A stretch of DNA of 64,000 bases. Origin: Burkholderia latens. GTDB lineage: Bacteria; Pseudomonadota; Gammaproteobacteria; Burkholderiales; Burkholderiaceae. The stretch is taken from NCBI RefSeq assembly GCF_001718795.1, contig NZ_CP013438.1, forward strand, positions 434,001 to 498,000, written 5' to 3'. Made by a program: the position numbers and the translations under genes. Numbering within the stretch: the first letter of the stretch is position 1; every line of letters starts with the position of its first letter. The notes beneath the pieces were generated by a model. It was not told where the DNA came from. It did no database searches and was given only the letters and a program-made list of their open reading frames with translations. Of the stretch, positions 8,827 through 25,054 are shown in pieces.

Positions 8827-9489
8827 ATGGAATCGACCCGACAAACGACATTGACCATCAGCAGCCGCAATTATTCGTCGTGGTCGATGCGGGGATGGCT
8901 GCTCGCGAAGCTGAGCGGGCTCGAGTTCGAGACGGTCAGCGTGCCGATCGATGCGACCTCGCGCGCGGAACTGCTGCTGCTGTCGCCGTCGATACTCGTG
9001 CCATGCCTGACGCACGACGGCAGCACGGTGTGGGACACGCTGGCGATTGCCGAATACCTGAACGAAATCCGGCCCGATGCGCGGCTGCTGCCCGACGATC
9101 GCCATGCGCGTGCGCATTGCCGGTCGATCTGCGGCGAGATGCACTCCGGTTTCAGCGCATTGCGCTCCGCGCTGCCGATGAACCTGCGTGCGCATTTTCC
9201 CGGTTTCCGGATCTGGTCGCGTGCGCAGCACGACATCGAACGCATCATGACGATTTGGCGCGAATGCCTGTCCGCGTACGGCGGCCCCTGGCTGTTCGGC
9301 GCGCAGATCGGTATCGCCGATGCGATGTACGCGCCGGTCGTCACGCGCTTCCTGACCTACGACGTGAAACTCCCGCCCGATATCGCCGACTACTGCATGC
9401 GCATACTCGCGCATCCGTTCGTCGCCGAATGGATCGACGCGGCGCAGGCGGAGCACGAGGATATCGACGAACTCGACATGGAGTTCTGA
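8827..9489 (+). CDS. Glutathione S-transferase family protein
   Basis: A 220-residue cytosolic GST. Residues 8-85 form the thioredoxin-like N-domain, with SSRNYSSWSMRGWLLAKLSG supplying the catalytic Ser/Tyr region, the cis-proline loop ILVPCLTHDG and the glutathione-binding DTLAIAEYLNE. The C-terminal helical domain includes LFGAQIGIADAMYAPVVTR, a typical N-capping/hydrophobic staple region. The ATG at 8827 has an AGGGGAA ribosome site. The substrate is unknown. It is divergent from phaZ. Confidence 0.9.
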   Translation: MESTRQTTLTISSRNYSSWSMRGWLLAKLSGLEFETVSVPIDATSRAELLLLSPSILVPCLTHDGSTVWDTLAIAEYLNEIRPDARLLPDDRHARAHCRSICGEMHSGFSALRSALPMNLRAHFPGFRIWSRAQHDIERIMTIWRECLSAYGGPWLFGAQIGIADAMYAPVVTRFLTYDVKLPPDIADYCMRILAHPFVAEWIDAAQAEHEDIDELDMEF

Positions 9490-9727
9490 TCCGCTGCGCC
9501 GCTACCCCGGCTTTCAATTTGACGACAGGCGCGCGGTTCGAAACGAATCCACTCGGCGGTCCATCAGTCCGCAAACGTTTGGCTTCGATTGCGCACGCTG
9601 GCGAGTGCGAATTCCCTAAAGGATGTTGCGCGCGATGACGTAAACGGGTCACGGGGACGACTCGCGATCGCACGCATCCGACATGCGACGCGCAGTCCGC
9701 AACAACCAGCGCAGCAGGGGAACCAAC

Positions 9728-10966
9728 TTGAATCGTCAGCAATCGTGGACGCGTACGGCCGCGCCCGGAGAGATCATTTACTCGGAGGGCTTCGCCGGCG
9801 AGCCCGTCATCTTTCTGATCGCCGACGGCAAGGTCGAGTTGTCCACGCGCTGCGACGACAAGCGCGTCGTCGTCGCGACGCTCGGGCGCGGCGAATTCTT
9901 CGGCGAAGCGGCACTGCTCGGATCCGAACCGCGCGCGCATACCGCGAAGGCGCTGTCGTTCTGCCAGCTCACGGTCGTGCCGGCCGCGACGCTCGACGAC
10001 GAAATCGAGCACGTGTCGGCGCTGCTGCGTCATATCGTGCGCACGATGATCCGGCGCGTGAAGCGCAAGGACGACCAGCTCGCGACCTATACGCACGCGG
10101 ACTTCATGCCGGGCGTGGTGTCGTATGCGCACGTGCTGTCGCTGATGGCGGGCGCCGAAACGCGCGGCTCGGACGACGCGTGGTCGCGGCGGCCGATGCA
10201 GGCGCATGCGGCCGAGACGTCGGTGCCGCTCGCTGACGTGATTCGCCGCTGCCGCGCGATTGCCGGTCATTCGCGTCCGCACGTGCTCGCGATGCTGCGC
10301 CGCATGGAAAAGCTCAATCTCGTCACGATCGGCGCCGCGCACGCCGATCACGCCGGCGGTGCGGTCGAACATGGCGCGTCGGCGGATGCGCGCCAGGTCG
10401 TCACGTTCGATGCCGCGCGCGTGGTCGATCGCGCGCAGCAGGTCGCCGATCACGAACTCGACGTATCGATCAACTGCGAACTCGAGCTGATCGAACTCGT
10501 CGATCTCGAAGCGCTGATCGGCGTCGACCGGAAGCTGCTGCTCAACAAGCTGTCGCACGGCGAGATCGCGGACGAAGTGTTCGCGTTCCGCAAGTCGAAA
10601 GTGCTCGGCTATGTCGAGCAGAAGGGCGTTGCGTATTTCTCGCGGCGCAGCCCGCGCGCCGGCGGCGACGTGCGCTCGCTCGAGGACATCGTGTGGGTCG
10701 ACCAGCGCACGCTGTTCGACGTGATCAGCGCATTCGACACGTACGATCTCGCGAAGCTGATCGCGAGCCTCGACGACCGCGCGGTGGCGGACAAGCTGTT
10801 CTCCGTGATGACGGAAGCGCGGCGCAACGAGGTGTCGTGGGTGATGCGCCGCGAGTTGAAGCTCGATCCGATCGAGGTCGAGGAGATCGAACGCCGCGTG
10901 CTGGACGCCGTGCGCGCGGCCAAGGCGCCGGCGGCCGTCGCGCCGCTGGCTTCGTCCGACGCATGA
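9728..10966 (+). CDS. Cyclic-nucleotide-binding protein with FliG-like C-terminal domain
   Basis: A protein of about 412 residues with an unusual architecture. Residues about 8-115 are a cNMP-binding beta-barrel (GEIIYSEGFAGEPVIFLIAD, and the phosphate-cassette region GRGEFFGEAALLGSEPRAHT). Residues about 165-215 look like a CRP-type winged helix (RCRAIAGHSRPHVLAMLRRM). The C-terminus (about 330-400) resembles the FliG C-terminal domain: EDIVWVDQRTLFDVISAFDT, then DLAKLIASLDDRAVADKLFS and the charged helix after it. It lies 22 bp before MotA-like and MotB-like genes. I infer a nucleotide-responsive rotor-like or regulatory partner of that stator pair. TTG at 9728 follows AGGGGAA; an ATG at 9683 is possible but lacks a ribosome site. 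Confidence 0.7.
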   Translation: MNRQQSWTRTAAPGEIIYSEGFAGEPVIFLIADGKVELSTRCDDKRVVVATLGRGEFFGEAALLGSEPRAHTAKALSFCQLTVVPAATLDDEIEHVSALLRHIVRTMIRRVKRKDDQLATYTHADFMPGVVSYAHVLSLMAGAETRGSDDAWSRRPMQAHAAETSVPLADVIRRCRAIAGHSRPHVLAMLRRMEKLNLVTIGAAHADHAGGAVEHGASADARQVVTFDAARVVDRAQQVADHELDVSINCELELIELVDLEALIGVDRKLLLNKLSHGEIADEVFAFRKSKVLGYVEQKGVAYFSRRSPRAGGDVRSLEDIVWVDQRTLFDVISAFDTYDLAKLIASLDDRAVADKLFSVMTEARRNEVSWVMRRELKLDPIEVEEIERRVLDAVRAAKAPAAVAPLASSDA

Positions 10967-10988
10967 CGCACGCACGACGGAGACGCAT

Positions 10989-11753
10989 ATGGACCTGTTG
11001 ACCCTGGTTGGCGTGGTAGTCGGCGGCGCGGCGATCGTGTTCGGCTTCGCGCTGGAAGGCGGGCATTTTTCGATGCTGTTCCAGTTCGAAGCGCTCGTGA
11101 TCGTGCTCGGCGGAACGCTCGGCGCGGTGATGATCCAGAACACGTGGGCGCGCTTCTTCGACGCGGTGAAGCAGCTGCGGCTCGCGTTCGTGCGCGCGCA
11201 GGAAGTCGATCGCAAGCACCTGACCGACGTGCTGGAATGGGGCGATCGCGCGAAGCTCGACGGGTTGCTTGCATTTGAATCGATGGACGTGACCGGCATT
11301 CATCCGTTCGCGCGGCGCGGGCTCGAACTGCTCGCGAACGGCGTGCCGACCGCCGTGCTCGAGGACGCGCTGCATCGCGACCTGGATGCATACGAGCGCA
11401 GCCGGCTCGCCGCCGCCCGCGTGTGGCAGCAGGCCGGCGGCTATGCGCCGACGTTCGGCATTCTCGGCTCGGTGCTCGGGCTCGTGCAGGTGACGAGCCA
11501 CATCCTCGAACCGGCGCAGCTCGGGCCGGGCATCGCGGTCGCGTTCATCGCGACGCTGTACGGCCTCGCGTTCGCGAACCTGGTGTTTCTGCCGCTCTAC
11601 GGGAAGCTGCGTGCGCAGATCGACAGCGAGCTGCGGTTTCGCAAGCTGTATCTGGACGGCCTGCTCGCCATCTCGCGCAAGGAATCACCGCACACGATCG
11701 AAACGCGTCTGACCGGCGACGTGCGCGGACGTGCGGCCGAGTCGCTCGCATGA
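10989..11753 (+). CDS. MotA-like stator/proton-channel subunit
   Basis: A 254-residue inner-membrane protein of the MotA/TolQ/ExbB family. TM1 and TM2 are at about residues 3-21 and 34-52 (LVIVLGGTLGAVMIQNTWA). A cytoplasmic segment of about 90 residues carries the FliG-interaction region. TM3 and TM4 follow at about 150-215, with APTFGILGSVLGLVQVTSHI and the conserved prolines. It is shorter than E. coli MotA (about 295) and closer to MotC/PomA-type proteins. With the next gene it should form an ion-conducting stator. No flagellar genes are adjacent. Confidence 0.85.
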   Translation: MDLLTLVGVVVGGAAIVFGFALEGGHFSMLFQFEALVIVLGGTLGAVMIQNTWARFFDAVKQLRLAFVRAQEVDRKHLTDVLEWGDRAKLDGLLAFESMDVTGIHPFARRGLELLANGVPTAVLEDALHRDLDAYERSRLAAARVWQQAGGYAPTFGILGSVLGLVQVTSHILEPAQLGPGIAVAFIATLYGLAFANLVFLPLYGKLRAQIDSELRFRKLYLDGLLAISRKESPHTIETRLTGDVRGRAAESLA

Positions 11754-11771
11754 TGCGCGAGGAGCTTCGAC

Positions 11772-12458
11772 ATGACCGCTCGAACTGACGCGGCGCGCGT
11801 GCGTGCGCCTGAGCGCGCGCGCGACGACGATGAAGCCGAAGGCACGCAATCGGGGCGCTGGCTGATCTCGTATGCGGACCTCATCACGACGCTGATGGTG
11901 CTGTTTCTCGCGCTGTACGTGCTGCAGCTCGCGAAATACAACGCACTCGATGCGCGGTATCAGACGCTCGCGCGCCACGAGAGCGGCGCAGCCAGTGCAA
12001 CGGCCGCCGCGCCCGCGATGCCGGATCGCGCGCCCGCATGGCTCGCTTCGCTCGACGCGCTGAAGAAGAACGGCCGCATTTCGCTCGTGCGCGCACCGCA
12101 CGGGATCGAGATCGGCATCGACGCGAAGGTGCTGTTCAACGTCGGCGATGCGCACCTGTTGCCGGACGCCGCACCGGTACTGAGCCAGATCGCGCGCGCG
12201 CTGAGCGAGCACGCGAGCGGCGACATCCTCGTCGAAGGGCATACCGACAGCGTGCCGATCGCGAACGCGAAATACGAATCGAACTGGGAGCTGTCGTCCG
12301 CGCGGGCGGGCAGCGTCGTGCGCTATCTGGCCGAGCGCGGCGTCGCGCCGCATCGGCTCGCGGCGATCGGCCGGGCCGATACGCAGCCGCTCGTCGCCGG
12401 CGACGATGCGGCTGCGCGCGCGCGCAACCGGCGCGTGACCATCTTCGTCGCGTATTGA
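11772..12458 (+). CDS. MotB-like stator subunit with OmpA-type peptidoglycan-binding domain
   Basis: A 228-residue protein with one N-terminal TM helix containing WLISYADLITTLMVLFLALY; Asp36 is at the position of the proton-carrying aspartate of MotB. The C-terminal OmpA-like domain has GHTDSVPIANAKYESNWELS and a later RARNRRVTI. It is shorter than flagellar MotB (about 300) because the periplasmic linker is reduced. It starts 18 bp after the MotA-like gene. Together they make a plausible proton-driven, wall-anchored stator. Confidence 0.88.
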   Translation: MTARTDAARVRAPERARDDDEAEGTQSGRWLISYADLITTLMVLFLALYVLQLAKYNALDARYQTLARHESGAASATAAAPAMPDRAPAWLASLDALKKNGRISLVRAPHGIEIGIDAKVLFNVGDAHLLPDAAPVLSQIARALSEHASGDILVEGHTDSVPIANAKYESNWELSSARAGSVVRYLAERGVAPHRLAAIGRADTQPLVAGDDAAARARNRRVTIFVAY

Positions 12459-12570
12459 GATGTGCATCGCGCGGCGGCGGTTCGTCGCGCGACGCGTGGT
12501 CGGCCCGCCGGCATAACGAATCCCGAATGTCGACCATGTGACGGCGGCGATGCGATTTCGCGCGCCGCGT

Positions 12571-12609
12571 GCCGATAACCCGAGCTGGCTCGAATCGAGC
12601 GGTTATCGG
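12571..12609 (+). promoter_or_regulatory. Nested stem-loop with sigma28-like -10 before the MCP gene
   Basis: CCGATAACC (12572-12580) pairs with GGTTATCGG (12601-12609), and inside the loop GCTCGA pairs with TCGAGC. The left arm, GCCGATAA (12571-12578), is identical to the -10 consensus of FliA-dependent flagellar promoters, but the matching -35 (TAAA, 15 bp upstream) is missing. The structure ends ten bases before the ATG at 12619 and may cover the ribosome site. Confidence 0.5.
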
Positions 12610-12618
12610 GGATATTCC

Positions 12619-14508
12619 ATGCACTTCTGGCGCAAGCTGTCCATTCAGAACAAGCTGATTTTCAGCATGACGAGCTGCCTGCTCGTGTTCGTTGCAATCT
12701 CGAGCGGGCTGAGCATACGGCTGATCGGCGACGCGGTGCGCGAGCGCGTTGTCCGCGAGGAACTGCCGACTGCCGTGAACGGCATCCGCGCCGACGTGCA
12801 GCGGCAGATGGCCGGCCCGATCGCCGCGTCGCGCCTCCTCGCGCGCGATGCGTTCCTGCTGCAATGGGAAGCCGACGGCGAGCCCGATGCAGGCACGCGC
12901 AACTGGATCCAGCTTGCGAAGAACGTGAAGGACGAGCAGAAGGCCGCGTCGGTGCAGTGGGCGTCGCTCAAGAGCGGCAATTACTACAACGAGGCCGGCC
13001 TGCAGCGCAAGGTCACCGACAAGGATCAGTGGCTGACCAGCTTTCTCGCGTCGGGCAACGCCTACGACGTGAACATGGATCGCGAAGTCACGCTCGGCGG
13101 CTACATGATGTTCATCAACAGCCGCGTGGAGCTGGACGGCGCGGCGGTCGGCGTCGCCAGCATGAGCTTGTCCGTCGATGCGCTCGCGAAGGGCATCGCC
13201 GCGTACCGGATCGGCGACACCGGGTTCGCGTATCTCGTGCGGCCGGACGGCGCGATCATGATGCATCGCGATACGTCGCTGATCGACGGCAAGCATTTCC
13301 TGAAGGACGCACCGGGCCTGCCGCGCGACGCATCGTCGACGCTGCTGGCCGGCAAGCCGTATGCGTACTTGAGCGTCGACGGCGAAGACGGCGCGCGATT
13401 CATCGCGACGTCGTTCATCCCGGAGCTGAATGCGTACGTGGTCGTCGAAGTGCCGCAGGCGGAATTGCTTGGCCCGGTGACGCGCGCGATTCGCAGCGCG
13501 GCGCTGGTTGCCGCAATCGCCGGCCTCGGCGTCGCGCTCGTCGTGATCTGGCTGGTGGGACGCGCGATCGCCGCGCCGATTCGGCGCGCGGCGACGCTGC
13601 TGTCGGAGATTGCCAGCGGCCAGGGCGACCTGACACGCCGGATGACGGTCGAGAGCGGCGACGAGATCGGCCAGCTGTCCGATGCGTTCAACCGTTTCGT
13701 GTCGTCGCTGTCGACGCTTGTGCACCGGATCCGCGCGGCGTCCGCGTCGATTGCGACCGGCTCCGCGCAGATCGCGTCGGGCAATGCGGACCTGAGCGAG
13801 CGCACCGAAGCGCAGTCCGGCAATCTGGAGCGCACGGCGTCGTCGATGGAGGAAATCACGGCGGTCGTGCGCAACAACACCGAAACCGCGACGACGGCCG
13901 CGCAGCTGATCACCGGCGCAGCGGATACCGCGACGCGCGGTGGGCGGGTGGTCGGCGAAGTCGTGACCACGATGGAGCAGATCAGCGACGCGTCGAGACG
14001 GATCTCGGAGATCATCGTGATGATCGACAGCATTTCGTTCCAGACGAACATTCTCGCGCTGAATGCGGCGGTGGAAGCCGCGCGCGCCGGCGAGCAGGGC
14101 CGCGGGTTCGCGGTCGTCGCGTCGGAGGTGCGCAATCTCGCGCAGCGCAGCGCGCACGCGGCAAAGGAAATCAAGGTGCTGATCGAGCACAGCGCGGGCA
14201 CGGTGAACACCGGGTCGCGTCTCGTCAGCGAGGCCGGCAACGTCATGCGCGATGTCGTGTCGCAGGTTCAGGGCGTCAGCGCGATGATGAGCGAGATCGC
14301 GGAGGCGAGCATCGAGCAGAGCGCCGGCATCGATCAGATCGGCGGCGCGGTGCAGTCGCTCGACCAGATGACGCAGCAGAACGCGGCGCTCGTCGAGCAG
14401 AGCGCGGCGGCCGCGCAGAGCCTGAAGCAGCAGGCGGCCGAGCTGACACGTCTCGTATCGGCGTTCAAGATCGATGACGATGCACGAATGCCGAAGTCGG
14501 ACGATTGA
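12619..14508 (+). CDS. Methyl-accepting chemotaxis protein with periplasmic Cache-like sensor
   Basis: A 629-residue receptor. TM1 is at about residues 13-37. A periplasmic sensor domain of about 255 residues with a Cache-like pattern (GFAYLVRPDGAIMMHRDTSL) follows, then TM2 at about 294-318, HAMP, and a long coiled-coil signalling domain with the conserved tip SFQTNILALNAAVEAARAGE. The ligand is unknown. It starts at the second good ATG (MHFWRKL); the in-frame extension to 12538 is non-coding in character. It follows the MotB-like gene by 160 bp and has its own promoter-like hairpin. Confidence 0.92.
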   Translation: MHFWRKLSIQNKLIFSMTSCLLVFVAISSGLSIRLIGDAVRERVVREELPTAVNGIRADVQRQMAGPIAASRLLARDAFLLQWEADGEPDAGTRNWIQLAKNVKDEQKAASVQWASLKSGNYYNEAGLQRKVTDKDQWLTSFLASGNAYDVNMDREVTLGGYMMFINSRVELDGAAVGVASMSLSVDALAKGIAAYRIGDTGFAYLVRPDGAIMMHRDTSLIDGKHFLKDAPGLPRDASSTLLAGKPYAYLSVDGEDGARFIATSFIPELNAYVVVEVPQAELLGPVTRAIRSAALVAAIAGLGVALVVIWLVGRAIAAPIRRAATLLSEIASGQGDLTRRMTVESGDEIGQLSDAFNRFVSSLSTLVHRIRAASASIATGSAQIASGNADLSERTEAQSGNLERTASSMEEITAVVRNNTETATTAAQLITGAADTATRGGRVVGEVVTTMEQISDASRRISEIIVMIDSISFQTNILALNAAVEAARAGEQGRGFAVVASEVRNLAQRSAHAAKEIKVLIEHSAGTVNTGSRLVSEAGNVMRDVVSQVQGVSAMMSEIAEASIEQSAGIDQIGGAVQSLDQMTQQNAALVEQSAAAAQSLKQQAAELTRLVSAFKIDDDARMPKSDD

Positions 14509-14562: not shown

Positions 14563-15780
14563 TCAGGGCGAGCGCAATGTCATCAGCCCCAGCGTGAGCG
14601 CGTTCAACGGCATCGCCGCGGCGCCCATCAGGAAGCTCGACGCATTCGCGCTCGCGCCCGGCATATGCAGCAGTGCGTGAACGATCCGCTCGCTCGCATG
14701 GCCGTCGCCATACGGATTGCTCGCGCGCGACATTTCCTCGTAGGCGCTCTCGCTGTCGAACAGCCGCGACGCTTCCCACAGGATCCGCTCCTGATCCGTG
14801 CCGACGAGCCGCGCGGTGCCGGCCTGGATCGCTTCGGGCCGCTCGGTCGTCTCGCGCGTGACGAGCACGGGCTTGCCGAGCGCCGGCCCTTCCTCCTGGA
14901 TGCCGCCCGAATCGGTGATGATGAAATGCGCGCGCGACATCAGGAACACGAACGACAGATATTCCTGCGGCTCGATCAGGTAGATGTTCGGCACGCCGCC
15001 GAGCAGCGCGCGCGCCGGTTCCCGCACGTTCGGATTCAGATGCAGCGGATACACGAACTGCGCATCGGGATAGCGGTTCGCGAGCGCGCACAGCGCCACG
15101 CAAAAATTGCGGAACGGTTCGCCGAAGCTTTCGCGCCGGTGGCCCGTGATCAGCACCACGCGGCGTGACGGTTCGAGAAACGGAAAATGCGCGGCAACCT
15201 TGCCGTGGAGCTCGGCATCGTGGTCGAGCATCCGTTTGACGTCATGCAGCGCATCGATCACGGTGTTGCCGGTCATCACGACCGCGCCGACCGGCACGCC
15301 TTCGCTGAACAGGTTATCGCGTGCCTGGCCGGTCGGCGCGAAATGCCATGACGACACCGCATCCGTTACGCGGCGGTTCAGTTCCTCCGGCCACGGCGAC
15401 CAGATGTCGCCGCTGCGCAGCCCGGCTTCAACGTGCCCGACCGGCAGATAGCGGTAGAACGCTGCGAGGCTGACGGCGAGTGTCGTGGTCGTATCGCCGT
15501 GCACCAGCACGACGTCCGGATGGAAGTCGTCGAAGACGATGCCGATCGCCTGAAGGATGCCGGTCGTCACGTCGGTGAGCGTCTGGCTCTGGCGCATCAG
15601 GTTCAGATCGTACTCGGGCTTGATGTCGAACAGCGTGAGCACCTGGTCGAGCATTTCCCGATGCTGCGCGGTCACGCAGACTCTGGCGTCCACATCCTTG
15701 CGCGCCTTCAGCGCGCGGACGAGCGGCGCCATCTTGATGGCTTCCGGGCGCGTCCCGAACACAAGCAAGATCTTCTTCAT
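14563..15780 (-). CDS. wecB: UDP-N-acetylglucosamine 2-epimerase (non-hydrolysing)
   Basis: A 405-residue enzyme interconverting UDP-GlcNAc and UDP-ManNAc. Family motifs are [19 protein letters not shown] at the N-terminus, [21 protein letters not shown] and the UDP-binding [20 protein letters not shown], followed by [10 protein letters not shown]. The length is near that of E. coli WecB (376) with a slightly longer C-terminus. It is divergent, across 1.2 kb, from an exopolysaccharide operon ending in glmS, so it may supply a ManNAc donor for that polymer. Other wec genes are absent. Confidence 0.94.
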
Positions 15781-16154
15781 CGTTATCCTCGTTGAGCTTC
15801 TTTGCGCCGGAAGACCCGGCACCTGGCGCCAAGCATGGTTGCGGGCAACCCGCACCGCTCCCGCGTGCGATCGCACCGGCCGATGCGGGCCGCGCGACAT
15901 GCTGCGGTGTGGCGGGGCGGGCGCACCGTTCTTGTCCGCGCGGTCCGTGCCACGCAATCGTCGGACGACGGCCGTCCCGTTGACCCTGATCCGTCACGTC
16001 ATGAGCGTTCCTCGCTATGTCGGTCGCAACGTCTTCGTCATATCGTTCGCGTTGCCATACGGCGGCGCGACCGACGTAGATCCCGATTCCGATACAGCAA
16101 TATTCAAACCAGCCGCTCGTGCTGCCGGGTCCGCTTCAAGCATCACGCACGATT

Positions 16155-16322: not shown

Positions 16323-17020
16323 TGGATCGCTTTGCCCGGCGAATTTCATCTGCGCAATGAATGGAGCGACATCGATCTGACGGCTTCGGCCTTTTCGCGA
16401 AGGTTTTCGCCGCAGTGCGTGGCGACGTCGTCGCCGGGGCCGACTGCTGCGAAATGTTGCGTATCTGTAACGTAAGGGCAGTGCGCGGACGCGATATTCG
16501 CATGACGGCCGCCGGCGCCGCGCTGCGGCAGGCCGCCTGCGCGGTTGCCGGACGCGATTCGTCCGTGGACGATTCACGATTGATTTCACGTCGAAGCCGC
16601 GTCGCGCAAAGCGATGCGTGCGCCGATCAGCAGACGATTCGCCGCCCGATGCAAACGGCTGGCGAGACGCGGCCGCTGCGCATGCGTCGACGCTGATTCG
16701 TCGGTGAATCAAAAAGCTGCTGCCGCGGCGCGGCCGGCGCTCGCGGCGACGGTGTCCTCCGTTGCCGCACGGGGCCGCGCGGCCGATGGCTCGCCCCTTG
16801 CTTGTTCTGGCCGGACAAGGCGCATCCCGACGCGTTCGACCGGCAGCAGGCGAACCGGGACGCCAGAGCAACGAATCCGGAAAGCGGCACGGCACGCTCG
16901 TCAGGCGCGGAACATGGCCGCGCGCGCGACGGACGTGTGCCGCTTGCCATTGACATCCGCGCGATCCACGGCCGTGCCCCAGCGTTCATCGGCCGGCGTC
17001 GCCGGCACGGGGGGCAGCAC

Positions 17021-18562
17021 ATGAAAAACCGTCGGACGATGTCGCTGTGTGTCGAAGGCATTCTGCTGCTGATCGTGCTCGCGTGTGCACAGGCGCTGCA
17101 TGACACCGCATCGCGGCCGGCAGCCGCAGCGGTGCAGGTGCAGGTCGGCATGCCGGCCGCCGATGCGGCCGAGCGTGTCGGCGGCTACGGCGGTCCCGCG
17201 CCGCTTGCCGTGCTCACGTCGACCGATACGTCCGCACTGCTCGAGCCGCCGCTCGCCGACGCGCCCCGCATCATGTTCGATCCGGAAACATTGCTGATGC
17301 CGTGCGTGGCGTATCTGTGGCTGTTCACGCTGTTGACGTGCGTGTATGCCGCGCGGCATTACATGTTCAGCCTCGACCGGTTGTTCAAGCCGCAGCATGC
17401 GCCTTATCAGACGATTACCCATGGCGAATGGCCGCGGCTCACCGTGTTCGTTGCCGCGCACAACGAGGAAGCGGTTGTCGTCGATTGCCTGATGGCGCTG
17501 CTCGCGACGACCTATCCGCACGACCGGCTGACGATCATTCCGGTCAACGACCGATCGACCGACAACACGCGCGCGCTGATCGACGAGGTGAAAGCGTTGG
17601 CCCCCGACCTGATCAAGCCGTTTCACCGCGAAAGCGGCAAGCCGGGCAAGGCGGCCGCGCTCAAGGACGCGCTGCGCTTTATCCGCGGCGACATCATGGT
17701 GGTATTCGACGCCGACTACCTGCCGCGTCCCGGCCTGCTGAAGGAACTCGTCGCGCCGTTCTTCGACCCCGAAGTGGGCGCGGTGATGGGGCGCGTCGTC
17801 CCGCAGAACGCCGACAGCAATCTGCTCGCACGGCTGCTCGATCTCGAGCGCGCGGGCGGTTATCAAGTCAATCAGCAGGCGCGCAACAACCTGAACCTGG
17901 TGCCGCAGTACGGCGGAACCGTCGGCGGCGTGCGCAAGGGCGCGCTCGATGCGGTCGGCGGCTGGTGCGACGACACGCTCGCCGAGGACACCGACATGAC
18001 CTACCGCCTGTTGCTGAGCGACTGGCGCACGGTCTACCTGAATCACGCCGAATGCTACGAGGAGGTGCCCGAGCGCTGGGCGGTGCGCGCGCGGCAATTG
18101 ACGCGTTGGGCGAAAGGGCACAACCAGACGCTGCTGCGCTATCTGGGCCCGGTGTTGCGCAATCCGCTGATCTCGCCGCGTTGCCGGCTCGATGGCGCGC
18201 TGCTGCTCGGCGTGTTCCTGATGCCGGCGCTGCTCGCGATTGCATGGGCGACCGCGATCGCGCTGTACCTGCTCAACGGCGTCAACTCGACGGCGCTCGG
18301 CCTGCTCGTGTCGCTGCTCGCGTTGTTCGGGTTCAGCACCTTCGGCAACTTCGGCGTGTTCTTCGAGATCGTCGTCGCCGCACGCCTCGACGGTCGCGCG
18401 ACGCGGCTGCGGCTCGTGCCGGTCAACGTGGTCGGCTTTTGCGTGACGATCGCGGCGGTGGTGTCCGCCTTGTGGGGGCTCGCGCTCGACGCCGCGTTCC
18501 GTCGCGAACTGAAATGGGACAAGACCGAGCGCTTTCGCCGGCAATTGAAACCGGGACGATGA
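17021..18562 (+). CDS. Processive GT2 family glycosyltransferase (polysaccharide synthase)
   Basis: A 513-residue integral membrane synthase of the cellulose synthase/PgaC type. TM helices lie at about residues 9-27 and 95-120, with three more at about 390-415, 425-455 and 470-495. The catalytic core between has VNDRSTDNT, VFDADYLPRP (the DxD site), GGTVGGVRKGALDAVGGW, AEDTDMTYRLL and the product-binding QLTRWAKGH. It should polymerise a beta-linked sugar, probably an N-acetylhexosamine given glmS and wecB nearby, and extrude it across the inner membrane. The ATG at 17021 follows a GGGGGG-rich ribosome site. There is no PilZ domain. It is first in an operon running to glmS. Confidence 0.88.
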   Translation: MKNRRTMSLCVEGILLLIVLACAQALHDTASRPAAAAVQVQVGMPAADAAERVGGYGGPAPLAVLTSTDTSALLEPPLADAPRIMFDPETLLMPCVAYLWLFTLLTCVYAARHYMFSLDRLFKPQHAPYQTITHGEWPRLTVFVAAHNEEAVVVDCLMALLATTYPHDRLTIIPVNDRSTDNTRALIDEVKALAPDLIKPFHRESGKPGKAAALKDALRFIRGDIMVVFDADYLPRPGLLKELVAPFFDPEVGAVMGRVVPQNADSNLLARLLDLERAGGYQVNQQARNNLNLVPQYGGTVGGVRKGALDAVGGWCDDTLAEDTDMTYRLLLSDWRTVYLNHAECYEEVPERWAVRARQLTRWAKGHNQTLLRYLGPVLRNPLISPRCRLDGALLLGVFLMPALLAIAWATAIALYLLNGVNSTALGLLVSLLALFGFSTFGNFGVFFEIVVAARLDGRATRLRLVPVNVVGFCVTIAAVVSALWGLALDAAFRRELKWDKTERFRRQLKPGR

Positions 18563-18565
18563 ACG

Positions 18566-19573
18566 ATGACGACCTTCAACGTGATGGTGCCGGTGGCCGG
18601 TGTGCTCACCTTGCCGTTCCTGCCGTTGCTGCATGAACTGATCCGGCGCAGCGACGTGGCCGCGCTGCCGATCGGCGACGGGCCGTTCGTCGATCAGGCG
18701 CTGCTCGCCGCGCGCTGGCGCGATGCGCTGCGCACGCACGCCGGCGGCGCGCACCCGGCCGATTCGCCGGCCGCGCCGCCGTGGCACGCGCTCGGGCTGC
18801 TGGTGTGCGACGACGACGAGATTCGCGTCGTGCGTGACGAACAGTGCGACGACGTGCTGTACGCGCGCCGCACGATCACGCTCGATGGCGGCGCGCGGGC
18901 CGCGTACGCGTTCGCAGAGCAGCGCATCGACATTCACGCCGGCGCGACGGTCGGCATGCTCGCGCACGCGCCGCACATCGACGTCGACAGCGCAGTGTTG
19001 CGCGGCGCCGTGGTCGGCGGGACGGTGTGCCTGCACGGCGCCGGCGGCTTCGCATGCCTGTACGGCGAGCCGATCGTGTTCGGCAAGACGGCGGGCGCCG
19101 CGCCCGACGCCGCGTCGGCCGACATGCCCGACCCGCCGCGTCGCGCCGTGTCGCTGACGCGCCACTTCGCGAAGCTGCCGCACCGCTACGTGCACGGCCG
19201 TTACCTGCTGCCTTGCGACGTGCGGCTGCCTGCGCACACGGCGGTGCAGGGCAACCTCGTGGTGGACGGCACGCTCGTACTCGGCGACGGTTGCGTGCTG
19301 CACGGCAGCGTGAAGGCGCATCGCGTCGAACTCGAACGCCACGCGTTCCTGCATGGCGGCGTGTTCGCGCGCGACGACGTGCTGCTCGCGAGCGGCAGCT
19401 GCATCGACGGCGTCGTGTCGGCCGGCGGCCTGCTGCGCGTGACCGGCGCGCGCATCGGCGTGGCCGGCCATCCTGTCAGCGCGTGCGCGCGCGACGTCTC
19501 GGTGATCGGCCATGCGTGCGTGCACGGCGACCTCGTCGCGTGCCGCAGCGGCTGGTTTCACGCATCCCGTTAA
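18566..19573 (+). CDS. Bactofilin-like (polymer-forming cytoskeletal family) protein
   Basis: A 335-residue protein three bases after the synthase stop. The C-terminal half (about residues 210-330) is a series of short beta-helix turns: LPAHTAVQGNLVVDGTLVLG, CVLHGSVKAHRVELERHAFL and similar, as in bactofilins and left- or right-handed beta-helix proteins. Residues about 100-160 hold another such stretch. The N-terminus has a hydrophobic segment (VMVPVAGVLTLPFLPLL) that could associate with the membrane. It may form a scaffold for the synthase. The family match is by pattern, not by a unique motif. Confidence 0.6.
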   Translation: MTTFNVMVPVAGVLTLPFLPLLHELIRRSDVAALPIGDGPFVDQALLAARWRDALRTHAGGAHPADSPAAPPWHALGLLVCDDDEIRVVRDEQCDDVLYARRTITLDGGARAAYAFAEQRIDIHAGATVGMLAHAPHIDVDSAVLRGAVVGGTVCLHGAGGFACLYGEPIVFGKTAGAAPDAASADMPDPPRRAVSLTRHFAKLPHRYVHGRYLLPCDVRLPAHTAVQGNLVVDGTLVLGDGCVLHGSVKAHRVELERHAFLHGGVFARDDVLLASGSCIDGVVSAGGLLRVTGARIGVAGHPVSACARDVSVIGHACVHGDLVACRSGWFHASR

Positions 19574-19583
19574 GGAGCGCCCC

Positions 19584-20600
19584 ATGTCCGATCGTTTCCG
19601 CCGTCGCCGCTCGCGCGCGCCGGTCGCCGCCCTGGCGATGCTGTGCGGCGTCGCCGCCGGCCCGCTCCCGGTGCGCGCGGCGCAACCGGATGACACCGAT
19701 GCTTCTCCGCCCGCGCAAACGGCCGACGCTGCGACGCCCGTGATCGTGCCGCGCACGCTCGACGGGCCCGCATTCGTGCGTGTGTCGCCCGGCGGCGTGC
19801 CGGAAGGCACGTCGCTTGCGGAGTTTTCGCCGGACGAAACGAACCGGCCGCCGTTGCCCGATGCGGTGATCGCGCACGTGCAGGCGCCGGGCGAACCGCA
19901 TGCCGAGATGTCGCTCGGCGTGTCGAGCGCGCACCTGACGCACGGCTACGGCGACTGGTACGGCGTGCACGTGCGCGGCGTCTATCAGGACGGCGGCCGC
20001 ACGATACTCGGCGAACTGGCGCAATTGCACCGCTTCGGCGAAAACACGCAGCTCGGCTCATTGACGTACGTGCAGGACATGGGGCCGGACTGGTTCGGCG
20101 GCATCGGCTTTTCCGGCACGACGTCCGGCACGATCCTGCCGAGCGCACGCGTCGACCTGTCGATCAACCGCAAGCTGCTGTCCAACCGGTCGCTGATCGT
20201 GTCGCTGGGAGCCGGCTACGCATGGAACCGCAGCGGTCACAAGGATCAGCTGTATCACGCCGGCCTGATCTGGTATGCGCTGCCGAAGTGGATCTTCGAG
20301 GCTGGCACGAACTATACGGTCGATTCGCCGGGCTCGGTGAAGGCGCCGCAATACTACGGCGCCGTCACTTACGGCGAAGTCGGCAAGAGCGTGATCGTGC
20401 TGCGCGCCGGGTTCGGCCGCGAGGCGTACCAGGTGACCGGTTCCGGTTCGCAGATCGCCGACTTCCGCAGCCACGAAGTGATCGCGAAATGGCGCTACTG
20501 GGTCACGCGCAAGTGGGGCACGCAGCTCGAATTCGACTACTACCACAACCCCTACTATTCACGGATCGGCGGCGAGCTGAGCGTGTTCTACCGCTGGTAG
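19584..20600 (+). CDS. Outer-membrane beta-barrel protein (YaiO-like)
   Basis: A 338-residue exported protein. A basic N-terminus and hydrophobic stretch end at VRAAQ, giving a signal peptide of about 36 residues. A Pro/Asp-rich stretch of about 80 residues follows, then a barrel domain of alternating amphipathic strands (HLTHGYGDWYGVHVRGVY, GSLTYVQDM, KWGTQLEFDYYHNPY) ending in FYRW, the aromatic C-terminus of BAM-inserted barrels. It resembles YaiO barrels found in exopolysaccharide operons and is a candidate export pore. The start has TAAGGAG. It sits ten bases after the bactofilin-like gene. Confidence 0.72.
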   Translation: MSDRFRRRRSRAPVAALAMLCGVAAGPLPVRAAQPDDTDASPPAQTADAATPVIVPRTLDGPAFVRVSPGGVPEGTSLAEFSPDETNRPPLPDAVIAHVQAPGEPHAEMSLGVSSAHLTHGYGDWYGVHVRGVYQDGGRTILGELAQLHRFGENTQLGSLTYVQDMGPDWFGGIGFSGTTSGTILPSARVDLSINRKLLSNRSLIVSLGAGYAWNRSGHKDQLYHAGLIWYALPKWIFEAGTNYTVDSPGSVKAPQYYGAVTYGEVGKSVIVLRAGFGREAYQVTGSGSQIADFRSHEVIAKWRYWVTRKWGTQLEFDYYHNPYYSRIGGELSVFYRW

Positions 20601-20614
20601 CGGGGGCGGGGGCC

Positions 20615-21385
20615 ATGCAGACGCGTCCCGTCCGTTCCGCCGTCGACCGTTCGCTGCGGACCCACCCGCATCCGCAGCGCTGGCTCACGTCGATCGCGCT
20701 GCTGACGCCGACCCTTTACGCGTTGCTGTGGGCCGGCTTGCCGCTCGCGTGGCGCTACTGGCGTGCAGTCATGATCTGGGGTGCACGGCAGATCGATCCG
20801 GCACTGCACGTGATCGTGCTCGGCTATCCGCCCGATGCGCCGCGCGTGCCGCTGCTGTCGATCGACGTCGCCGCGCGCATGCCGAGCGGCACGCAGCTTG
20901 CCGTCACCGCGGCGATCTGCGCGGCCGGCTTCGGCGCGTCGTTCTATCGCCGCGCGAGCTGGTTGCCCGTTGCATATCTGTTACGTATCGCGAGCTTCAC
21001 GCAGCTGCTGATTTGCGCGTATTTCTGGCTCGCGCCCGGCGCGTTTCCGTACGTACCGATGCTGCACCTGCGCGACATGTTCGTGCTGCACGGCGCGGCG
21101 ATCACGCTGATTCCGCTGGTGATGGCAGCGCTCTACTATCCGCTCGATTTCTCGCTGCCGCAGAAAATTGCCGCGTCGGTGCTCGTGGTCGGCTACTTCG
21201 TGTTCGCGCTGCCGTTCGTGATGTTGCTGCATGCGATCGTCGTCCATCACGGCTCGCTGCTGTTCCTGCCGTTCTGCTACTTCCTGCTAGGCGGCCCGCT
21301 GCTGATCGGCCTGCTGGTCACGCTGTACACCTACTGCGCGAGCTGGCCAGGCGCGCTGACGAATCCGTCCGGCGACGCGCGCTGA
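20615..21385 (+). CDS. Polytopic inner-membrane protein of the exopolysaccharide operon
   Basis: A 256-residue protein I do not recognise. It has about six to seven hydrophobic segments: residues about 22-46, 93-112, 118-140, 152-174, 183-205, and 212-240. A hydrophilic loop (about 47-90) probably faces the periplasm. Its ATG follows a GGGGGCGGGGG ribosome site 14 bases after the barrel gene. The position suggests a membrane partner of the synthase. No catalytic motif is evident. Confidence 0.75.
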   Translation: MQTRPVRSAVDRSLRTHPHPQRWLTSIALLTPTLYALLWAGLPLAWRYWRAVMIWGARQIDPALHVIVLGYPPDAPRVPLLSIDVAARMPSGTQLAVTAAICAAGFGASFYRRASWLPVAYLLRIASFTQLLICAYFWLAPGAFPYVPMLHLRDMFVLHGAAITLIPLVMAALYYPLDFSLPQKIAASVLVVGYFVFALPFVMLLHAIVVHHGSLLFLPFCYFLLGGPLLIGLLVTLYTYCASWPGALTNPSGDAR

Positions 21386-21720
21386 GATCGCCGGGAAAAA
21401 CCGCCGTATCAGCGATGAAACGATTCGGCCGCGTTTTCGGCCCGTTCGTGCGGCACCGCGGCACGCGAAGCGAGCACGACCGGGCCTCCAGCGCCAATGG
21501 CACGTTGTTCGCTTGAGTCACCACGTCGCATCGATGCGTTTGCAGCGGAGAAGACGGTGCGGTTTGCCAGGGCCCGTTCGCGAGTCCGGCGGCCGGCGCC
21601 GGCGTCGTTCGATGCTCGACGAATTGGGCAGCCCCACACTTCCACCGGACAAGGTCGGTTGATCGCCCGGCACGCGCACCGCTGCCGCGCACAACCCATT
21701 CCTTAAGCGAGGAGCACACC
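21386..21720. other. Intergenic gap inside the exopolysaccharide operon
   Basis: These 335 bp separate the membrane protein from the deacetylase-like gene. No convincing gene is present; a 33-codon ATG frame at 21417 lacks a ribosome site. It may hold an internal promoter. No strong hairpin was noticed. Confidence 0.4.
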
Positions 21721-23874
21721 ATGTTGGCAAAGTCAGGCAAGTTCTTGCGGATTCTGTTCGCGTTGTTCGCGCTCGCATTCGCATTCAGTCCGGGCGGCGT
21801 TCTGGCAGCCACCAACCAGCTGCTGCTGTTGGTGCCCGATACGCTGACGCTGCCCGATCCTCGCGTATCGGCCTGGCTCGACACCGCGCAGGAGGAGGGG
21901 CTACAGATCAAGGTGATGACCGACAGCCAGTTCCTGGCCGCCGGGTCGACGCTGTCGCAGTACCCGGGCCTGATCCTGCCGGACCAGGTTCATACGACGG
22001 CAGCCGACACGCTGGTGACCGCGATCCAGAACTACGCGTTGAACGGCGGCAAGGTGATGCTCGTCTACGACTTCGGCGTGCTGAATTCGGCCGGCTTCTA
22101 CGTGAGCCCGAAATCGCGCTTCAGCAGCATGGCCGGCGTCGATTACGTGTTGTATGACCAATACGGCGGCAACATGATCGGCCTCGGCAACGTGACCGGG
22201 ATGAGCAGCTGGCTGCGCACGCTGCAGGTGCCTCCCGGCAAGTCGATGGCATGGACGACCACGTCGACGACCACGGCCGCCAGCCCGACGATGTCGTTGG
22301 CGTCGACGAGCAGCTCCGGTACGTCGAAGACTTCGGCATCGACATCCGGCACCAGCGCGCTGTTCCTGCCCGCCAGCCCGTCGAACCCGGGCGGCCTCGC
22401 CAATTACAACCATGGCGCATGGTTCCAGTACACGACGCCGCCGACCGGCAGCGGGCTCTTGAACCAGACGGTGCCGAAATTGACGGGCGCCGTCGCCGGC
22501 AAGCTGAAGAAGACCACGTCGTATAGCGCCGGCTCGCTGCTGAGCACCGCGACGGGTACGACCGCCAACGCGCTCGCGTCGACGCTGGCGACCACGACCG
22601 ACACGCTCGAAGGCATCTCCGGCTACGTGTACGGGTTCCTGACGTATCCGAGCTTCGTCACTCAGGGCACGTATTCGGGCACGACGATCCTGACGTCGCC
22701 GAATTTCGGGCTCGTGTCCGGCTACAACCCGTACGGCAACGGGGGCGTGCTGTTCGTCAACCTGCCGCTCGCGTACCTCGACGGGCAGACCGACGGGATG
22801 CTGATCCACGGCTACCTGCACTATTTCGGCACGCAGATGCTGAATCTGCCGTCGTTGTCGCCGCTGCCGAACGCGCAGGCCGGCCTCGTGTTCAACTGGC
22901 ACTTCTGCGCGGGCGACCAGATCCAGCCGGCGCTCCAGCTGAAGAACCTCGGCGTATGGAACAACGGGCCGTTCTCGATCGTGGTGACGGCCGGCCCGGA
23001 CGAGGCAACGTTCGGTGACGGCAACGGTATCAATCTCGCCAACAATCCGACGGCGCAGAGCCTTCTCAAGTACTTCGTCAGCAAGGGCCAACACGTCGGC
23101 AGCCATGGCGGATGGATTCACGACTACTGGGGGGCGAATGCGAGCGAAACGAACGCGAGCACGTTCACGCAGTACCTGGTGATGAACCATCAGGCGATTC
23201 AGACGGCGACGGGCTTGCCCGATGTCGAATACGCGGCGCCGGAAGGCAACACGCCGACGTGGTCGGTGAACTGGCTCGAAAGCAACGGCTTCAACGGATA
23301 CTACTTCACCGGTCACACCGGCTCGGCGCCGACCCGCGCGTATCGCAACGGCGCGCTGCTGAACCCCGGCCTGTGGGCTTACCCGGTGATGCCGTTCGGC
23401 AAGTACGCGACGTTCGAGGAGTTCCAGCAGTATGCGGTGCCGACGACCGACGTGAACAACTGGTATGCGGCGCTGATGAACTTCGTCGTCGCCAACCGCA
23501 CGAGCCGGTTGATCTATGCGCATCCGCTCGGCGCATCGTCGTATACGTCGACGCTGTCCGCGATCTTCTCGCAAGCCAATTCGCTGAAGCTTACCGGGCA
23601 GTTCCGCTGGTACACGATGACCGACATCACGGTGTTCGACCGGTCGCGCCTGAACGTCACGTGGTCGGCCACCGATACGGGCTCCAGCTGGGCATTCTCG
23701 GCCAGCCACCCGACGAGTCTCGCGAACATGACGTGGCTGCTGCCGAAGGCGAAATTCGCGGCGCCGATCATCACGCAAGGCATCGGCACCGTCGGCATCA
23801 CCGACTCGAAGTACTGGCTCGTCACCGCGAGCACCGGTACCAGCCTCAAGTTCACGAGCGCCAAGGTGAACTGA
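21721..23874 (+). CDS. Large secreted protein with polysaccharide-deacetylase-like domain
   Basis: A 717-residue protein with a signal peptide (about residues 1-30, ending GVLAAT). Residues about 35-170 look like a Rossmann-type or ThuA/GATase-like domain (LLLLVPDTLTLPDPRVSAW). A Thr/Ser-rich linker lies at about 175-220. The region around 385-640 resembles a degenerate NodB/polysaccharide deacetylase: GLVFNWHFCAGDQ, HVGSHGGWIHD at about 458-468, YAAPEGNTP and LIYAHPLG. The canonical DD pair is reduced to one Asp, so activity is uncertain. Context (synthase, barrel, glmS) points to modification of an amino-sugar polymer in the periplasm or outside, by analogy with PgaB and PelA. The start follows GCGAGGAGC. 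Confidence 0.6.
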   Translation: MLAKSGKFLRILFALFALAFAFSPGGVLAATNQLLLLVPDTLTLPDPRVSAWLDTAQEEGLQIKVMTDSQFLAAGSTLSQYPGLILPDQVHTTAADTLVTAIQNYALNGGKVMLVYDFGVLNSAGFYVSPKSRFSSMAGVDYVLYDQYGGNMIGLGNVTGMSSWLRTLQVPPGKSMAWTTTSTTTAASPTMSLASTSSSGTSKTSASTSGTSALFLPASPSNPGGLANYNHGAWFQYTTPPTGSGLLNQTVPKLTGAVAGKLKKTTSYSAGSLLSTATGTTANALASTLATTTDTLEGISGYVYGFLTYPSFVTQGTYSGTTILTSPNFGLVSGYNPYGNGGVLFVNLPLAYLDGQTDGMLIHGYLHYFGTQMLNLPSLSPLPNAQAGLVFNWHFCAGDQIQPALQLKNLGVWNNGPFSIVVTAGPDEATFGDGNGINLANNPTAQSLLKYFVSKGQHVGSHGGWIHDYWGANASETNASTFTQYLVMNHQAIQTATGLPDVEYAAPEGNTPTWSVNWLESNGFNGYYFTGHTGSAPTRAYRNGALLNPGLWAYPVMPFGKYATFEEFQQYAVPTTDVNNWYAALMNFVVANRTSRLIYAHPLGASSYTSTLSAIFSQANSLKLTGQFRWYTMTDITVFDRSRLNVTWSATDTGSSWAFSASHPTSLANMTWLLPKAKFAAPIITQGIGTVGITDSKYWLVTASTGTSLKFTSAKVN

Positions 23875-23965
23875 ACCGCAACGCCGACGCGTGCGCCGGA
23901 CGCGGCGCGGCCAACGCCGCGCCCGGCGCCGATTGCGCAGCATAACCGCGCAGGAGCCCCAGATC

Positions 23966-25054
23966 ATGAATCGGCCCGCGCTTTTCCCCGCCGCCCGCGC
24001 ATGCGTGGCGGCCATCGCCAGGTTGCTGCGTTTCGCGCGCATCGCCTGCTGCGTCGCCGCGTGCTGCTCGATGCCGCACGCGGACGCCGCAGAACTGCAG
24101 CTCAACGGGCTGTACCAACGTCCGGATGGCGCGATCACCGTGCGGCTGAACGGCGCGGGCATCGACCCGTACTTCGCGGCGAAGGCGCTGCTGGCTGCGG
24201 CCGATACGCGGATGGACGCCCGGCAGTCCGCGCTCGCCTGGATCGCGTGGGTATTGCCACGCCAGCGTCCGGACGGCGGCTTCGACCGCTATTGCGTGAA
24301 GAGCGGGCTCGTCAGCCCGTGTGCGGAAGCCGACGCGGACGACGCGATGATGGCGACCTGGATCGAACTGCTCGCGCGCTTTGCGCCGCCCGACGGGATG
24401 CCCGCCGCATGGGAAGCGAGCATGAGCCGCGCGGGCGCGCACCTCGACACGCTGCTCGACAGCGCGACCGGCGTTTACCAGATTTCGTCGACGCTGCACG
24501 TCGCGCTGCTGATGGACAACGTCGAAGTGCACAGCGCGTTTCAGGCGCTCGCCGCGTATTACGTGCGCCGCGCCGACTACGCACGTGCGGCGCCCTGGAG
24601 CCAGCGGGCCGACCGGCTGGCGGCGGCGATCGTGAAAGTGTTCTGGCGCGGCACGCAATCCGGTTTTCGCGCGAGCACGCAGAAGATCAGCGACGCGAGC
24701 TTCTATCCGGCGAAGGTCGCGCAGATCTTTCCGATCCTGTCGGGCATCCGTGTGCCCGACCAGTCGAACGAGACGATCTATGCGCAGTGGATGCACAAGT
24801 ACGGCAAGACATGGATGCAGCTCGCCGGCTCCGATTTTCCGTGGGGATTGATCGCGCTGGTCGCATTCAAGATGAACGACTGGAGCACCGTTGCGTGCTG
24901 GTACGCGCGCTCGGGACCTTATCGTCACGGCGCGCACTGGAACGTACTGGAGGAGGCGTTGTACCTGGCATTCGAAAGCCGGATGGCCGATCCGCTCGCA
25001 CCCGCCACCTGCGGGTTCACGACGGCGGAGGCAACGGTGACCGGATCGCGCTGA
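23966..25054 (+). CDS. Secreted protein, possible (alpha/alpha)-barrel polysaccharide hydrolase
   Basis: A 362-residue exported protein; the signal peptide runs to about residue 45 with [12 protein letters not shown], and a lipoprotein reading at the cysteines is possible. The mature part is helical and rich in Trp, with [12 protein letters not shown] and [14 protein letters not shown] segments as in (alpha/alpha)6-barrel glycoside hydrolases and lyases. I cannot assign a family. Synthase-dependent exopolysaccharide operons usually carry such a hydrolase next to a deacetylase, which matches this order. The start has CAGGAG. Confidence 0.55.

Follow-up and report, generated by a model that had tools for sequence, protein, structure and literature searches.

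Second flagellar stators such as MotCD are already known. YcgR, EpsE and MotL are reported to be accessory proteins with an action on the flagellar rotor and/or stator; YcgR and MotL respond to cyclic di-GMP (c-di-GMP) (PMC10140304, PMC12713396, PMC3000366, PMC8203827). The locus described here lies in a 64,000-nucleotide stretch of Burkholderia latens DNA (NZ_CP013438.1, positions 434,001 to 498,000; hereafter the window, within which its coordinates are given). It is a cassette of three plus-strand genes (9728-12458): a gene for a fusion protein, which carries a cyclic-nucleotide-binding domain (CNBD) and a predicted FliG C-terminal domain (FliG_C), is followed after 22 bp by a MotA-like gene and, after a further 18 bp, by a MotB-like gene. 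A preliminary description had reported this trio, and the observation is confirmed, including the gene order, the 22-bp gap and MotB Asp36.

The interpretation that we favour, with about even credence, is that the cassette encodes an accessory flagellar stator, an ion-channel pair of the MotC/MotD type, together with a dedicated second-messenger-gated adaptor that would grip the stator through FliG_C. What the sequences show are the domains, the predicted FliG_C fold and the gene order, along with a promoter sequence in Burkholderiaceae that resembles that of flagellin, and the presence of flagellar genes in those hosts that were checked; the role of the fusion as a nucleotide-switched stator partner is plausible. 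One compact cassette brings together a stator pair, a sensor for nucleotides and the fold by which the rotor binds stators, and it recurs in distant bacteria in varied surroundings.

The fusion protein and its stator pair

The fusion gene (9728..10966) encodes 412 amino acids and begins with a TTG codon at 9728, preceded by the ribosome-binding site GGGGAA (9717..9722), which falls in a conserved block. The CNBD (residues 9-93; 9752..10006) is of the Crp/Fnr type (PF00027, 6.9e-18). Its FGE motif is present in 54/54 Burkholderiaceae fusions and the pocket residues G59, E60 and R69 are invariant in 23/23 fusions; this part of the predicted structure has low confidence. It is followed by a predicted Crp-like winged-helix region (residues ~125-240; 10100..10447) and a small middle domain (residues ~252-310; 10481..10657). 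The middle domain is possibly a MerR/RacA-like helix-turn-helix; it has no Pfam match and matches known folds weakly at best. FliG_C occupies residues 316-402 (10673..10933).

The predicted structure of the C-terminus has the fold of the FliG C-terminal domain over 86-87 residues, nearly free of gaps (86 residues over 87). When folds are ranked by similarity, the top 14 are all FliG C-terminal domains; FliG middle domains score near 8, a chain of the FliF-FliG_N complex scores 7.0 and the remainder score at most 5.3. Structural comparison thus bears out the FliG-C-like C-terminus proposed in the preliminary description. The Pfam score for FliG_C is borderline in Burkholderiaceae fusions. A profile designated A2 matched 2 of 399 genomes of the order, with at most eight candidates scored per genome; both matches are the fusion itself and neither is a canonical FliG. 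The link between the C-terminus and FliG rests on Pfam and the predicted fold.

The MotA/MotC-type subunit (254 amino acids; 10989..11753) matches PF01618 (MotA_ExbB, 1.1e-23) and PF20560 (MotA_N, 1.9e-10), both over cut-off. It also matches the NCBIfam 'flagellar motor protein' model PRK09109, presumably the MotC family model, at 252.9 bits (cut-off 237). Its closest solved relatives are flagellar stators: 9lu9 MotA (1.3e-52; the B-chain label names Paenibacillus MotA1B1), PomA (8.9e-39) and 8ucs MotA (7.2e-28). It is 41-42% identical to a P. aeruginosa protein encoded beside motD. K89, E97, P154 and P202 are invariant in 54/54; in an alignment with PomA, K89 falls on R88 and E97 on E96, and we take the E. 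coli MotA counterparts of these two loop charges and two prolines to be R90, E98, P173 and P222.

The MotB/MotD-type subunit (228 amino acids; 11772..12458) matches the MotB plug region (PF13677) and the OmpA-type peptidoglycan-binding domain (PF00691). The channel-helix residue D36 is invariant in 54/54. The protein falls below the MotD equivalog cut-off (PRK09038, 174.5 bits vs 283). It also matches ZorB models (best 1.4e-21), as expected from the MotB/OmpA domains that it shares with ZorB.

The start codon of the fusion gene varies. Across 55 loci (L013-L067), with the start chosen mechanically, it is TTG in 46, GTG in 7 and ATG in 2; unlike the fusion gene, the neighbouring motA starts with ATG in every locus listed. 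Judged from these codons, a weak start may hold the adaptor scarce relative to the stator.

Promoter, distribution and hosts

A sequence of the TAAAG-N14/15-GCCGATAA type, like that of promoters in the sigma28 (FliA) regulon, is present upstream of the fusion gene. Site scoring and alignment place it in the window as TAAAG-N15-GACGTAAA (9617..9644, plus strand); the window's own -10 box has only 5/8 consensus bases. The best sigma28-type site lies at -100..-125 and scores at least 10 of 13 in 52/55 related upstream regions, while such a site occurs in 0.65% of 4000 windows drawn at random from these loci, a control that does not allow for the relatedness of the loci. The Caballeronia and P. 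hospita sites score 12 of 13. Among 15 representatives, identity is 92% and 81% in the two boxes (values inflated by the choice of the best site), 41% in the spacer and 32-34% in the flanks. A consensus-free alignment of 18 upstream regions shows no conserved blocks other than the ribosome site and the two boxes of the promoter. The flagellin genes of genomes G002 and G012 have the same layout as the cassette, TAAAG-N15-GCCGTCAA at -119; that of G007 has a weaker site (10 of 13, spacing 14). FliA was found in 4/4 genomes. No sigma70-like promoter was found in 9480-12700 and no Rfam element in 9400-12800.

The cassette is highly conserved in Burkholderiaceae. Scanning genome contigs turned up 54 loci (L013-L066). 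In 52 of them the triad keeps its order and orientation, and the remaining two are fragments at contig ends. With three loci from plasmid records (L067, L106, L107), the triad is present in 55/55 untruncated loci, many of them from close species and thus phylogenetically non-independent. A full-length fusion is present in 21/25 Burkholderia genomes and in 0/16 genomes that each represent a different one of 16 further families in the order. Protein searches matched 485, 552 and 479 proteins, of which the best 120 in each were considered. A MotC-like gene accompanies the fusion in 4/4 genomes, vs 0/3 genomes without the fusion. The nearest genome compared is G001, which has 21% of the sampled 31-letter words in common with the window; the fusion of G001, whose coordinates match those of the fusion in the Burkholderia latens locus L013, is 96% identical to the window protein. 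No further family is common to all 55 loci among open reading frames of at least 100 amino acids from ten representative loci, two loci spanning 6-7.5 kb, with their neighbours out of view.

A class-level search of 369 genomes (E<=1e-20) found four further fusions outside Burkholderiales, in G829, G940, G818 and G941. At most four candidates were scored per genome, so the true range is possibly wider. The G829, G818 and G941 fusions align with the window protein over 374-386 residues at 25-28% identity. FliG_C scores 27.5 to 38.3 bits in the four, with three at 38. MotA and then MotB follow the fusion in the same order and orientation in G829, G940 and G818. The synteny with MotA and MotB named as a check in the preliminary description is therefore conserved in all untruncated Burkholderiaceae loci and in 3/4 distant gammaproteobacterial loci. 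A MotA tree separates the stators of the two triad groups, yet one clade is not rejected (approximately unbiased test, p-AU 0.065, long branches).

Canonical FliG is present in 26/26 genomes scanned (7/7 and 19/19; 23 with the fusion and three sisters without). A 42% sample of G940 contains flagellin, an FlhA-family protein, a flagellar-type ATPase and CheB. No flagella-free host of the fusion was found among the 23 fusion genomes and the sampled part of G940; G818, G829 and G941 lay outside this check.

Two other loci are of note in these genomes. In G001, contig C2, about 252-260 kb (L072), a second FliG (95 bits) has close by another FliA-type sigma factor that exceeds its cut-off and one more MotA-type gene; this is probably a second flagellar system. 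A gene lying about 9 kb from that of flagellin, with a sigma28-like site upstream of it, encodes a protein made of short threonine-rich repeats (e.g. TTDQVKALTTDSVAALTT; L109, G002:C1 about 159.6 kb; L135 start).

Role of the fusion protein

In the proposed mechanism, the adaptor would dimerise like Crp through its CNBD half. FliG_C would dock on the neighbouring MotA at its cytoplasmic loop, in the place of rotor FliG, and this grip could compete with rotor FliG or prepare for it. Nucleotide binding would alter the grip on MotA. The adaptor might then be a clutch, brake or loader, timing when the second stator drives the flagellar rotor.

Several results weigh against this interpretation. Firstly, the charges used for torque are missing in Burkholderiaceae. 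The torque-helix charges that face the stator in E. coli FliG, which we take to be K264, R281, D288, D289 and R297, are kept as K, R, D/E, D and R/K in 31/31 canonical FliG sequences, mostly from the top-scoring loci of one search (14 have E in place of D288 and 10 have K in place of R297). All five are replaced in 54/54 Burkholderiaceae fusions, mostly by A/S/N, A/V/T, W, V/L/I and D, respectively; to judge by these residues, the classical FliG-MotA contact may be gone with them. Secondly, not all methods recognise FliG in the fusion. Foldseek gives no match of the fusion model at E 0.001, and an hhalign comparison of canonical FliG with the C-terminal profile gives 1.5% probability and aligns the FliG middle region instead. 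In genome scans the fusion's FliG_C reaches E<=0.001 in 4/4 fusion-bearing genomes of one set but in 6/19 of the other. Thirdly, genome-wide scans find no enrichment of the exact promoter pattern: G002, G012 and G007 have 3, 2 and 4 matches vs 2, 3 and 7 in a backward control. The distant gammaproteobacterial fusions have no clear sigma28 site (best 9-10 of 13, near background), and the G941 fusion has no MotAB on its short 8.8-kb contig. Finally, a class III cyclase was not found in 2/4 fusion genomes and a class I cyclase was not found in any of the four; cAMP as the ligand is therefore unproven.

Distant relatives retain part of the torque charges, e.g. K and R in G829 and G940. FliG_N and FliG_M have no Pfam match in the window protein or in any of 22 members. 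Without these two domains the fusion could not join the C-ring by known contacts. Since the five torque charges are also missing in Burkholderiaceae, a rotor role is unlikely. The fold has been kept while the torque chemistry has drifted in Burkholderiaceae, which we take to favour a regulator over a rotor.

Candidate ligands are cAMP, cGMP and c-di-GMP. Bcam1349, a transcriptional regulator of Burkholderia (B. cenocepacia), is reported to bind c-di-GMP (PMC3584217). The gene immediately upstream of the G829 fusion, on the same strand, encodes a class III nucleotide cyclase (L131 9695-11917, minus strand), a possible source of ligand for that fusion. In G940 a second, stand-alone CNBD protein of 157 amino acids is encoded between the fusion and MotA (L130 7849-8322, minus strand).

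An alternative that we regard as unlikely, yet as the best of those considered, makes the fusion a second-messenger-gated transcription factor of the Crp/Fnr type, held by FliG_C on idle MotA-MotB at the membrane. Under load, as stators join, rotor FliG would displace the factor, so that engagement of the motor, as on surface contact, would be turned into gene expression. The CNBD is one expected of Crp/Fnr factors, and a winged helix is predicted; the fusion has no Pfam helix-turn-helix match. Burkholderiaceae and the remaining gammaproteobacteria do not share a conserved sequence in the putative recognition helix, which has a one-residue insertion in G829 and G940. Apart from the ribosome site and the boxes of the promoter, no conserved operator-like block was seen in the aligned upstream stretch. 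Such a factor tethered to stators would, if true, be of a new kind: a one-protein mechanosensor made of flagellar motor parts, which passes motor load or surface contact directly to gene expression.

An improbable alternative is that MotA-MotB is a plain auxiliary flagellar stator; the upstream Crp-like gene would merely be its regulator, and the FliG_C-like fold would serve some other contact, as in the armadillo-like MgtE_N. The borderline FliG_C score and the lost torque charges in Burkholderiaceae suit this explanation, as does a weak extra Pfam match to MgtE_N, below cut-off, in the G941 relative. It is opposed by the first 14 fold matches, which are all FliG C-terminal domains, by the three distant relatives at 38 bits for FliG_C, some with part of the charges, and by the position of the gene next to MotA-MotB in widely separated families.

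The least probable explanation is that of the preliminary description, an alternative motor apart from flagella with the fusion as the rotor-side part of an independent MotAB-driven device: the cassette is indeed a self-contained three-gene unit apart from flagellar loci, on a replicon other than that of fliC, fliA and fliG in G002 and also on plasmid records, but this view is contradicted by the flagellin-like promoter, canonical FliG in all 26 genomes scanned, the flagellar and chemotaxis genes of the distant host G940, the lack of a drivable further component common to all loci, the missing torque charges in Burkholderiaceae and a MotA-like protein that matches no ZorA model.

Neighbouring genes and comparison with known systems

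Downstream of the cassette is a gene for a methyl-accepting chemotaxis protein (MCP; 12538..14508, likely ATG start 12619, plus strand), with MCPsignal and HAMP over the Pfam cut-off and dCache_1 below it. An MCP 88-93% identical to it lies downstream of motB in 23/54 loci, a linkage confined to part of the family. A 9-bp inverted repeat, CCGATAACC ... GGTTATCGG, with a 20-base loop (12572-12609) lies just before the likely MCP start; from its position it could be an operator or attenuator. A UDP-N-acetylglucosamine (UDP-GlcNAc) 2-epimerase gene (14563-15849, minus strand) precedes the region 16802-24000. This region encodes a GT2 glycosyltransferase, a YaiO-type outer-membrane barrel, two large open reading frames without a Pfam match and a weakly bactofilin-like protein below the Pfam cut-off; by its gene content it is likely an exopolysaccharide operon. 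Only some relatives have the GT2 and YaiO genes linked to the cassette.

The cassette has parts in common with several known systems. Zorya, the anti-phage ZorA-ZorB system, is a MotAB-like motor, and the cassette MotB matches ZorB models; unlike ZorA, the MotA-like protein has no match to any PADLOC model at E<=0.001. We know of no CNBD-FliG protein in Zorya. Crp/Fnr regulators, to which Bcam1349 presumably belongs, share the CNBD and predicted winged helix; the fusion adds the middle and FliG_C domains and the linkage to a stator. If the proposed role holds, database entries labelled merely 'Crp/Fnr regulator' or 'cyclic nucleotide-binding domain protein' might be parts of the flagellar motor.

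FliG shares its C-terminal domain fold and Pfam FliG_C with the fusion, which has a CNBD and winged helix instead of FliG_N and FliG_M. The torque charges of FliG are lost from the fusion in Burkholderiaceae and partly kept in distant relatives. Like the cassette, Pseudomonas MotC/MotD is a pair of MotA-type and MotB-type proteins beside a separate primary MotAB. In contrast to the cassette, motCD of P. aeruginosa is located in a chemotaxis cluster, with no FliG_C-bearing partner in the record examined, and the cassette MotB scores under the MotD cut-off.

In the partly accessible literature, with preprints and most subscription papers outside the search, no description was found of this protein, of the cassette or of second stators in Burkholderia. 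PMC6768053 proved unrelated.

The closest parallels in proposed working mode are the brakes and clutches YcgR, EpsE and MotL, which the fusion might resemble by analogy. It differs from them in two ways. Firstly, it has neither a PilZ nor a glycosyltransferase domain among its Pfam matches; PilZ, expected of a YcgR-type brake, is absent from the Pfam matches of the window protein and of the 22 members. Secondly, it carries the very fold with which the rotor binds stators, and a stator of its own is encoded alongside it. The cassette touches two open questions, how bacteria choose between stator sets and how the motor reports load to the cell; it also bears on the recruitment of a rotor domain as a regulator. 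Second stators and second-messenger brakes are known; searches of the literature, as far as it was accessible, showed no brake-like or sensor-like protein with a FliG_C fold, fused to a CNBD and encoded together with its own stator.

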